Positions 16,400 to 19,682 of a stretch of DNA of 42,583 bases are shown piece after piece; position 1 is the first letter of the stretch, and each line of letters begins with the position of its first letter. The DNA comes from Thermoanaerobaculia bacterium (GTDB taxonomy: Bacteria > Acidobacteriota > Thermoanaerobaculia > Multivoradales > JAHEKO01). The stretch is from NCBI GenBank assembly GCA_945787635.1, contig CALZIK010000056.1:1-42583 (forward strand), read 5' to 3'. Below the pieces are notes generated by a model, which worked only from the letters and a program-made list of their open reading frames with translations, did no database searches and was not told where the DNA came from. The translations under genes and the position numbers were made by a program.

Positions 16400-17437
16400 T
16401 CATCGGTTCGCTGGTTGCCGCCACAAGCTGGCCCGGTGGATTACGCGGCCTGTGGGGGCCGACGCATCCACGAACTCGAAGGAGAGCTCATCCGGAGATA
16501 CCTCGACGATCGCGAAGCCGAAGGCGCTCGTGGCCGAAATCACCTCGACGCCGGAGCCTGGAGGAAACGCCCAGCTTTGTCTCGCCGCATACAGGTCGCC
16601 GCCGCCGGCGCCCTGGACGATCTGATCGAAGTCCGGAGTCCGTAGATGCCCCTGGAGATGGTCGTGGCCAGCGAAGTAGACGTCGACGTCGCATCTGCGG
16701 ATCAGGCGCTCGAGCAGTGCTTGCTCGATCTCTTTGAAGGTTCCATTGGCGCGGCCGTGCCGGCCGCCCGGCGTATAGATCGGATGGTGTCCGAAGACGA
16801 GTCTCCAGCCGGGTGCGGCACACAGATGCTCGCGGGCGCGCTCGATCTGGCCGGTTTCGAGCCCCCGTGTGAGCAGGGTGGTGTCGACCGCTTGGATCGC
16901 CACCCATTCCGGCAGCTGCGGAACGGCATAGTCGAGAGCCGGCATGCGCCAGCGCTCACTCAGTTCGGAGTAGCTGATCTCGCTTTGGATCGAGCCCTTG
17001 CGCAGCCAGTCGTGGTTGCCGGCCACCATCCAGAAATCGGTTCGGCCGAACGCTCGATACGGTGCTTCGAACTGTTTCTCGAACGCACTCAGGGCGCGCT
17101 CGGCGTCCGGCCCCTCGAGACTCCGCGCGCCGGACCGGTAGATGTTGTCGCCGGTCACGAGGACGAAGTCGCACCCGCCGTCGGCGGCGCAACGTTCGTG
17201 CAGGACGTCGCCAACGGCGAGTTGCTCGGGTCCGCCGGTGCCCGAATCGCCGAGAACCGCAAAGCGCAAGCTCGTCTCGCCGCGATGGTCCGCTACCACG
17301 AGCGCGCCTGCGGGGCGAATCCGGAGCAACTCACCGACCTTCGGGCCGGTGACTCTTCGAAGCTGGATGCACGCCGCAACCAGCGAGACGACGACCAATG
17401 CGACGCAAAGTAGGAAAGTGCGCGTACGACCTACCAT
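16400..17437 (-). CDS. Metallophosphoesterase lipoprotein (calcineurin-like / purple acid phosphatase-like)
   Basis: A protein of 345 residues with all the blocks of the calcineurin-like phosphoesterase fold: 'LGDSGTGG', 'VTGDNIY', 'MVAGNHDW', '[11 protein letters not shown]' and '[12 protein letters not shown]'. These supply the Asp, Asn and His ligands of a two-metal centre that hydrolyses phosphomonoesters or diesters. The N-terminus has one hydrophobic segment ending in VAAC, a plausible lipobox, so it is likely an anchored lipoprotein facing the periplasm. The ATG at 17437 overlaps the end of the pheA-aroF fusion gene by seven bases, which argues for co-transcription with an aromatic amino acid gene although no functional link is obvious. 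The longer frame to 17743 lies wholly inside that upstream gene and is rejected. Confidence 0.87.
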
Positions 17438-19482
17438 CGCCGCCCTTGCCCCTCCACGATCGGCACAAGAGCCGCCTGGAGCCGCGCGAGGTCGTCGCCG
17501 GAGAGCGCCTGCTCGGCATCGCACAGGGCCTCCTCCGGATTTGGATGCACTTCCACGATCAGACCGTCGGCGCCGGCTGCCGCCGCAGCGAGAGCCAGTG
17601 GCGCGACCAAGCCGCGCCGACCGGCCGCGTGCGAAGGATCGACGATCACCGGTAGGTGGGTTCGCTCCCGAAGCACCGGCACCGCCGAAACATCGAGAGT
17701 GCTGCGGGTGGCGTTCTCGAAGGTACGGATGCCGCGTTCGCAAAGGATGACCTGGTGGTTGCCGCCTGCCATGACGTACTCGGCGGCCTGCAGGAACTCC
17801 GCGATCGTGGCGCTCAGACCGCGCTTCAAGAGCACCGGCCGGCGCACGGCGCCGACTTCCTTCAAGAGCTCGAAATTCTGCATGTTGCGTGCGCCGATCT
17901 GCAGAACGTCGGCCACCCGGGCGACGCGGTCCAGGTCTTCGAGGCGCAACACCTCGGTCACGATCGGCAGCCCGTACGCCTCCCGAGCCTCGGCCAGAAG
18001 CTCGAGGCCCTCGTAGCCGAGGCCCTGAAATGAATAGGGTGAGCTTCTCGGCTTGAAGGCACCGCCTCGGAGCATGCTCGCGCCGAGTCCCGCGACCATC
18101 TCAGCGGCGGCGAGTATCTGCTCCCGGCTCTCGACCGCGCAGGGACCCGCGATCATGGTGAAGGTGTCACCACCCACTTCCACGCGACCCACCCGGAGGA
18201 CGGTGCGCTGGCCAGGCGACGCGATCGCCGTCAGGTTCGGCCGGCCCGCGGCTGCGGGAATCGGCTCCGCGACCTCGGAGTCGTCGGCCGCGGCCGCGGG
18301 AGCCACCGTTTCACCCGGTGCCGCTCGCAAGTCCTCCCGCTCGACGATTGCGCGCGAGGGATAGCAGCCTAGAATCCGCAAGCTGCCGGTGCGCTGCCGG
18401 ACGCGGTTCAAGGTCTCGACCATGCGCGGATCTTCGGCGTTGGCCTCGACGTCGAGATAGAAGAGGTACTCCCAGGGCATGTCGGGCACGGGCCGGCTCT
18501 CGAGTTTGCTCAGGTTGAGACCCGCCTCCGAGAACGCGTTCAGGCACTCGGCTAGCGCGCCTTGACGGTGATCGACGGTCAAAAGGACCGAAGTCTTGGC
18601 GGGTACGCGCCCATCCACGCGCTCGGCCTCACGCCCGATCAGGACGAACCGCGTGTGGTTCTCGGAGTGATCCGCCACGCGATCGTCCAGGATCTCGAGA
18701 CCGAGCTGCCGGGCCGCCTCGGCCGAGCAGATCGCCGCCACCTGGGCGTCCTCGGATTCGGCGACCGACTCGGCGGCGGCCGCCGTGTCGTACCAGCTTT
18801 CGGCCCGAACCCCGACCAGACCGCGCAAGAACCGACCGCACTGCTGCAACGCGACCGGATGGGAGCGCACCGCGCGCAGATCGGCGACCTTCGCGCCCGG
18901 CTTCGCCACCAGGCAGTGCTCGACCCGCCAGATCTCTTCGTCCACGAGAGCCACGGGACGGTGTGCGATCTCGCGGTAGACCTCGTGGATGCTGCCGGCG
19001 ATCGTGTTCTCGATCGGCAAGAAGGCGTAGTCCGCCTCACCGGCCTCGAGCGCCTCGAGGGCGCTCTCGAAGGTCTCGTAGCCGGTTCGGGCAAGAGTCG
19101 AGTGCGGTCGGGAGGCGAAGAGCTTCTCGAGCGCCAGCTCCGAATAAGAGCCGGAAGCCCCCTGGTAGGCCACGCGAAGCGCCGGCCCGGTTCCCTCGCC
19201 CGCGGGAGCGGCCAGCCGGCGCTCCTGGTCCCGCCGAGAGTAGGCCAGAAGCTCTCGCAGAACCCTGCCGGCGAAATGCACCGAAAGCCCCAGGCTTTCC
19301 GCCTCCCGGCGCCAGAACGTGAAGACCTCGCGCTCACGGTTCGGATCCCAAAGCGGTGCCTCCCGGTTCTCGAGCTTGAAGCTCGCGATCTTGCGAACGG
19401 CCTCCATCCGCCGAGCCAAAAGGCCGAGAAGCTCGCGATCGATCTCGTCGATCGCGCTGCGGGATTGGTCGAGCTCCGCCAT
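17431..19482 (-). CDS. Fusion: chorismate mutase - prephenate dehydratase - ACT - DAHP synthase
   Basis: A protein of 683 residues that joins four modules. Residues 1-90 are an AroQ-type chorismate mutase ('[26 protein letters not shown]'). Residues 100-285 are prephenate dehydratase ('[12 protein letters not shown]', '[12 protein letters not shown]', NHTRF near 275). Residues 298-373 are an ACT domain with GALAECL and ESRP, the Phe-binding signature of PheA. After an Ala/Pro linker, residues 428-683 are a type I-beta DAHP synthase ('[10 protein letters not shown]', '[17 protein letters not shown]', 'DPSHAAGRR'). It would catalyse the first step of the shikimate pathway and also the conversion of chorismate to phenylpyruvate, with Phe feedback on both. 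The ATG at 19482 has AAGGAG six bases upstream. It is preceded by an apparent Phe attenuator. Confidence 0.93.
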
Positions 19483-19501
19483 TGGGTCTCCTTCTCTCAA
19501 C

Positions 19502-19529
19502 AAAAAAGCCCCGCCGGTCCGGCGGGGCT
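19502..19529 (-). terminator. Rho-independent terminator of the Phe attenuator
   Basis: On the minus strand a perfect 9-bp stem (19529-19521 with 19515-19507, sequence AGCCCCGCC/GGCGGGGCT) is followed at once by six T's (19507-19502). It lies 20 bases before the start of the pheA-aroF fusion gene and inside its 5' leader, so it fits an attenuator rather than the end of the upstream gene. Confidence 0.85.
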
Positions 19530-19552
19530 CGTTGCGGTCGATCGTTCCTGAC

Positions 19553-19627
19553 TTATCCGGTCGCGGCCCCGCTCTTCGGACTAGCGTCCGCAAAAAAGAA
19601 AAACGAGGAAGTGAAGGTCGCACGCAT
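19553..19627 (-). CDS. Phe-rich leader peptide of the attenuator (pheL-like)
   Basis: This is a 24-codon open frame from ATG 19627 to TAA 19555-19553. It begins MRATFTSS, then has four Phe codons in a row (TTT TTC TTT TTT at 19603-19592), and ends [12 protein letters not shown]. Five of 24 residues are Phe, comparable to the enteric pheL leader. Just after the Phe codons lies a small hairpin (CGGAC/GTCCG, 19590-19577). GCGGGGC at 19572-19566, near the end of the frame, can pair over seven bases with GCCCCGC at 19528-19522, the first arm of the terminator. A ribosome stalled at the Phe codons would leave this antiterminator segment free; one reaching the stop would cover it. No good ribosome binding site is visible, which is the weakest point. 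Confidence 0.8.
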
Positions 19628-19653
19628 GTTCTGAGGTCGGTTCAAGCGGGCAA

Positions 19654-19682
19654 AAGCTAGCACGGGCGGCAGGAGCGGTCAA
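19654..19682 (-). promoter_or_regulatory. Promoter of the pheA-aroF leader
   Basis: On the minus strand TTGACC (19682-19677) is followed after exactly 17 bases by an extended -10, TGCTAGCTT, with the hexamer at 19659-19654. Transcription would begin near 19647, about 20 bases before the leader peptide, giving a leader of about 165 bases before the structural gene. The -10 hexamer contains the TAG stop of the upstream DUF2878 gene. Confidence 0.6.

Follow-up and report, generated by a model that had tools for sequence, protein, structure and literature searches.

A putative phenylalanine attenuator ahead of an aromatic fusion gene in a Thermoanaerobaculia genome

Described attenuators and the Phe-rich leader

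The attenuation of pheA is among the known attenuators of the enteric type (PMC1183508). The enteric pheA system (leader pheL; Rfam family RF01859, Phe_leader) combines a Phe-rich leader with competing antiterminator and terminator structures, and its target encodes chorismate mutase (CM) and prephenate dehydratase (PDT). Leader ORFs of amino acid attenuators can also be leaderless. For instance, the transcript of the trpL ORF from Sinorhizobium meliloti starts exactly at the ATG (PMC7298713). A survey of predicted attenuators lists almost none with a known function in Acidobacteria (PMC2965389), and papers on such attenuators in Acidobacteria were not found within the limited literature collection that was searched. 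The mechanism as such is known; for this lineage, however, hardly any aromatic amino acid switches of the type have been documented.

Here, we describe a leader region in a stretch of 42,583 nucleotides from a Thermoanaerobaculia bacterium (contig CALZIK010000056.1 of assembly GCA_945787635.1), which is referred to as the window. On the minus strand, a short Phe-rich ORF and a terminator-like hairpin precede a gene encoding a four-domain fusion protein with a DAHP synthase part (Table 1). The element is very probably a functional ribosome-mediated transcription attenuator that senses charged tRNA-Phe, and we assign this reading a probability of about 0.88. The initial annotation had already proposed a classical attenuator, and this proposal survived every computational test that was run.

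The window element resembles the enteric pheA system in its Phe-rich leader, in the competing antiterminator and terminator, in the CM-PDT target and in the presumed working principle, which the enteric trp attenuator has in common with pheA (PMC1183508). It differs from it in the fusion of the target gene to a DAHP synthase, in the absence of a visible ribosome binding site and in the distant lineage. The element reached a score of 19.1 bits with the Phe_leader model, as compared to the gathering threshold of 55 bits (E 0.65), and it is, judged by sequence and covariance, outside this Rfam family. Moreover, no Rfam family, T-box included, reached its gathering threshold in the window, and the matches below threshold were unspecific. 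The leader ORF of S. meliloti trpL is likewise an amino acid attenuator leader lacking a Shine-Dalgarno sequence. Unlike the window element, it concerns Trp and belongs to the Alphaproteobacteria. Its transcript begins with the ATG itself, which for the window is uncertain.

Layout and predicted switching of the leader

Table 1. Sequence elements of the leader region and the structural gene (window positions)
Feature	Position	Strand	Basis
-35 box TTGACC	19677..19682	-	Sequence; promoter-pattern count in the window
Extended -10 box TGC-TAGCTT, 17-nt spacer after the -35 box	19654..19662	-	Sequence; promoter-pattern count
Leader peptide ORF, 24 codons, ATG 19627 to TAA 19555-19553	19553..19627	-	Sequence
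Putative regulatory codons, four consecutive Phe (TTT TTC TTT TTT)	19592..19603	-	Sequence; rarity of the run; rarity of TTT
Segment 1, CCTCGTTTTTC, overlapping the Phe codons; 11-bp pairing with segment 2	19598..19608	-	MFE fold
Segment 2, GTCCG-AAGA-GCGGGGC-CG, antiterminator 5' arm; 19577-19567 alternatively pairs with segment 1	19564..19581	-	
Segment 3, CG-a-GCCCCGC-CGGAC, antiterminator 3' arm, overlapping the terminator 5' arm	19517..19531	-	
Predicted intrinsic terminator hairpin (3:4), 11 pairs, -22.3 kcal/mol	19506..19530	-	Terminator scan; folding
T tract, six T	19502..19507	-	Sequence
AAGGAG Shine-Dalgarno sequence of the structural gene, 5 nt before ATG 19482	19488..19493	-	Sequence
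Structural gene, 683 aa, chorismate mutase - prephenate dehydratase - ACT - DAHP synthase fusion	17431..19482	-	Domains CM_2 + PDT + ACT + DAHP_synth_1

Rereading of the sequence confirmed all coordinates that the initial annotation had given for the promoter, the leader, the Phe codons, the GCGGGGC and GCCCCGC motifs and the terminator, and all elements follow one another in the proper order and register. The two boxes at 19682-19654 constitute a predicted sigma-70-like promoter. The pattern TTGACN(17-19)TANNNT has three matches in the window, where 0.38 are expected, and the other two each sit shortly before an ORF of their own strand. The ATG of the leader is situated 26 nt downstream of the -10 box, and direct reading revealed no Shine-Dalgarno sequence ahead of this ATG at 19627, as had been pointed out before. 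An in-frame TTG at 19645, 8 nt past the -10 box, would give a near-leaderless ORF of 30 codons. The domains of the fusion protein bear out the earlier assignment of a prephenate dehydratase to the downstream gene, and the amino acid encoded by the run, Phe, fits the pathway product of this gene.

The hairpin at 19530-19506 was the only terminator-like site that a terminator scan detected between positions 17000 and 21000. The six T residues had been described correctly; the stem, previously given as 9 bp, comprises 11 pairs according to the scanner. The antiterminator had been considered to be limited to seven bases, which turned out to be an underestimate. Its core GCGGGGC (19572-19566) is complementary to GCCCCGC (19528-19522) and is flanked by GTCCG:CGGAC and CG:CG pairs, giving a 2:3 helix of 14 bp in total with a folding energy of -28.2 kcal/mol, as compared to -22.3 kcal/mol for the terminator. 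The initial annotation was right about the promoter, the leader, the antiterminator and the terminator and had missed a further helix, which extends over the Phe codons. In this 1:2 helix, CCUCGUUUUUC (19608-19598) pairs with GAAGAGCGGGG (19577-19567) over 11 bp (-17.5 kcal/mol when folded alone). According to the folding model, the pairings 1:2, 2:3 and 3:4 are the complete set of a classical attenuator switch.

The folding of transcripts that stop before segment 3 is complete gave a probability of 0.68-1.0 for the 1:2 helix. In the equilibrium fold without a ribosome, the antiterminator outcompetes the 1:2 helix after segment 3 has emerged, and the default state therefore rests on the folding kinetics. 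For the scan of ribosome masking, the footprint was hidden codon by codon and the antiterminator probability was computed for each position of the A site. This probability is about 1 for A-site positions at codons 1-14, a range that covers every Phe codon. From codon 17 to the stop codon, the antiterminator is blocked, and at codons 15-16 the outcome varies with the assumed footprint. The switch point is predicted to be located just past the Phe codons. This agrees with the original idea that a stalled ribosome frees segment 2 and that a ribosome at the stop codon masks it.

The proposed mechanism would operate as follows. The transcript would begin about 7 nt past the -10 box, near position 19647, and a ribosome would translate the leader. 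When Phe-tRNA is scarce, the ribosome would stall at the Phe codons and cover segment 1. Segment 2 would then remain available for pairing with segment 3, and the polymerase would read on into the structural gene. When Phe-tRNA is abundant, the ribosome would advance over segment 2 to the stop codon, which would allow 3:4 pairing and the end of transcription at the T tract. An untranslated leader should favour termination because the 1:2 helix forms first, before segment 3 is complete, and would keep the terminator on, provided that it persists.

Chance expectation and alternative explanations

The hairpin could merely terminate transcription of the DUF2878 gene upstream, with the Phe run being a coincidence in the intergenic spacer. 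Indeed, this gene is co-directional and ends at position 19657, 127 nt ahead of the hairpin. Moreover, the closest fusion relatives lack such a leader, and the leader is not preceded by a ribosome binding site. However, this explanation is unlikely, given how rarely the features coincide by chance. The 4.36-Mb genome G000 contains 20 copies of the run of four TTY triplets, TTYTTYTTYTTY, counting both strands, and therefore only about 3.4e-4 occurrences are expected by chance in the 146-nt leader. Upon inspection, nearly all remaining sites turned out to lie inside or opposite long frames and not in a short leader frame ahead of a terminator. The codon TTT makes up three of the four positions of the leader run, as compared to 8 of the 75 Phe codons across six genes of the window. 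The pairings were assessed by randomising the 60 nt that separate the Phe codons from the terminator (n = 2000). An equally good antiterminator duplex was obtained in 10 shuffles, an equally good 1:2 duplex in 90, and both together in none of the 2000. A second version of the antiterminator shuffle test gave 21 of 1000 for the window. Since these tests were picked post hoc, after the element had been seen, they are treated as separate supports and their results were not multiplied. The coincidence is also difficult to reconcile with the promoter-like site, which lies where the upstream gene ends and before the leader, with an encoded amino acid that suits the gene, and with the recurrence of the layout before pheA genes of the class.

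It is even less probable that the leader is real but that control is exerted by translational coupling or by another signal, such as a general slow-down of translation, rather than by Phe-dependent termination. Phe-rich ORFs may also be used in other ways nearby, as suggested by an 11-codon ORF in the genome G020, which has its own AGGAG and no terminator. At the window locus, however, a strong predicted terminator with six T residues and a competing antiterminator are present, and the distance of 70 nt between the stop codon of the leader and the start of the structural gene is beyond that of normal reinitiation coupling. Finally, a mechanical ORF of 730 aa that is in frame with the gene opens at GTG 19623, but an N-terminal extension across a non-terminating hairpin, with no separate leader, is hardly credible, as the homologues contain nothing corresponding to the extension and become similar only from about residue 2-11 of the 683-aa product onwards, and as ATG 19482 has its AAGGAG 5 nt upstream.

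Fusion-gene relatives and aromatic leaders in the class

The attenuator reading was also confronted with the relatives of the fusion gene. In G041 (copy b), G028, G020, G035, G001 and G003, the region upstream of the fusion gene lacks a Phe leader with a terminator as well as similar DNA. A search of the leader DNA against 149 genomes of the class yielded no close homologue, only short chance matches. Both findings, together with the lack of a Shine-Dalgarno sequence before the leader ATG, speak against the attenuator reading. In a tree built on the CM-PDT part of the fusion proteins, the window gene is sister to copy a of G041 (support 97/94), and both are placed inside a clade that is otherwise from family f4 (100/99). 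The gene of the genus mate G001 pairs with that of G003 (99/98) and not with the window gene. Because the tree places the window gene with the f4 copies rather than with the genus mate, the gene was probably acquired by horizontal transfer or is an old paralogue. The initial annotation had named homologous loci without the Phe codons as evidence against an attenuator. Literally, this is what the inspectable homologues show. However, the tree identifies them as paralogues or distant copies, which may account for the lack of a leader in some relatives, and the sole true sister gene, G041 copy a, is truncated by its contig start at about residue 10, which leaves no readable upstream region.

The upstream regions of the relatives contain other sequence elements. 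The fusion genes of three relatives, G003, G028 and G041 (copy b), are preceded by a perfect palindrome, TGCCGCNNNGCGGCA (L006 1320-1334, L009 1283-1297 and L114 497-511, respectively). It was found nowhere else among 245 loci and is also absent at the window locus. The palindrome is likely an operator, which we regard as putative. The Phe-rich ORF of G020 (TTG-IFPVFYLLFF-stop, L010 about 1405-1440) ends shortly ahead of the gene's own Shine-Dalgarno sequence and is possibly a translational leader.

Other genes of G000 were inspected as well. The aligned start of trpE directly follows an upstream coding frame, pheS is preceded by another coding frame and has no leader, and the second DAHP synthase gene has no leader or terminator immediately upstream. 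The only further Phe-rich short ORF with a terminator-like site nearby, at C34:8574, was rejected as a false positive, being the antisense of the start of a Lys-rich protease gene. The intergenic region C34:8700-9010 at the contig end contains repeats of the type GGTCGACCGCTACAATTTTCGGTCGA in direct and inverted orientation. HisG was not found in G000, and prephenate dehydratase is present in 3 of the 18 genomes of the window's family f1, several of which are incomplete; together, these observations hint at amino acid auxotrophies in f1.

Aromatic leaders also occur elsewhere in the class. Upstream regions were scanned for aromatic-rich short ORFs followed by terminators, with reversed sequences serving as a control. 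Hits were obtained in family f14 and none in the controls. In this family, four prephenate dehydratase (pheA) genes are preceded by such leaders. Those of G101 (MISASLRFFAFFSAGRAGSVTV, motif FFAFF) and G085 (MNFSQFSSARYYFWYEPQPGLCRVARC, motif YYFWY) were detected by the automatic scan, and those of G079 (MQHNRSAFRFFSRMSAACLIV) and G094 (MNTTSCFAARFTGFFSKERR) were first read by eye. Together with FRFF and FTGFF, the motifs contain Phe in three leaders and mixed aromatic residues in G085. Each leader is followed by a terminator immediately before the gene. For G101, complementarity exists between GAGCGGGC, close to the leader end, and GCCCGCTC of the terminator, and for G094 between GGAGCGG and CCGCTCC. 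The antiterminator shuffles, taken alone, gave a clear result for G101 (8 of 1000) and weak results for the other three: G079 (146 of 1000), G094 (76 of 1000) and G085 (52 of 1000). The f14 pheA loci share the layout of the window element: three to five aromatic codons in a short stretch, an antiterminator arm within the last leader codons and a terminator about 20-34 nt past the stop codon. They differ from it by an unrelated sequence, an unfused PDT gene and start codons that are, as read from the sequence, only 7-13 nt past the -10 box (26 nt in the window). Owing to this short distance, the f14 leaders are probably leaderless.

Moreover, four CM-DAHPS operons of f14 are preceded by Tyr-rich leaders (G091, MFLRAYYYGFYT; G088, MTRTAQRFAYYYGYFT; G094, MNVNAPRNAYWYGYFT; G076, MTPNARAYRSFYGYYS). 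Like the window element, they combine an aromatic-codon leader with a terminator ahead of aromatic-pathway genes. Unlike it, they encode Tyr instead of Phe and have extra hairpin segments between the stop codon and the terminator, which is located 53-65 nt past the stop. A search with their segment pattern across 396 genomes of the phylum recovered two of the four known f14 loci. Three other matches were rejected, having no leader or terminator hit; the two that were read by eye resemble coding sequence. Outside f14 and the window, inspection of dozens of further PDT genes and of the six fusion relatives gave no Phe leader with a terminator. Aromatic-rich leaders followed by terminators were also observed at 19 of 80 named loci, and none in reversed controls; these 19 are DAHP synthase loci from Clostridia, other Firmicutes and one member of the Lentisphaerae (L041, L047, L048, L053, L064, L071, L075, L076, L083, L085, L086, L090, L091, L094, L098, L101, L102, L105 and L111).

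The lineage has at least eight further examples of an aromatic leader with a terminator, all in f14. Because four of them precede pheA and four CM-DAHPS genes, we conclude from sequence and layout that the class uses predicted aromatic attenuators repeatedly. It can be suggested, though only tentatively, that such attenuators arise repeatedly and independently at non-orthologous genes, with the foreign-looking fusion gene of the window on the one hand and pheA and CM-DAHPS in f14 on the other. They would follow one layout without shared sequence and would be partly leaderless, and homologous fusion copies would carry a palindromic operator instead. If so, this would be a lineage in which the switching between control devices can be followed. 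What makes the finding more interesting is that independent versions recur in a single class that has been little studied. If the placement in the Acidobacteriota is right, the window locus and its eight companions provide a testable set of amino acid switches for this lineage. Such leaders would also illustrate what gene callers miss and offer material for studying how attenuators arise anew. Moreover, predictions about when these bacteria synthesise phenylalanine themselves follow from the putative switches.
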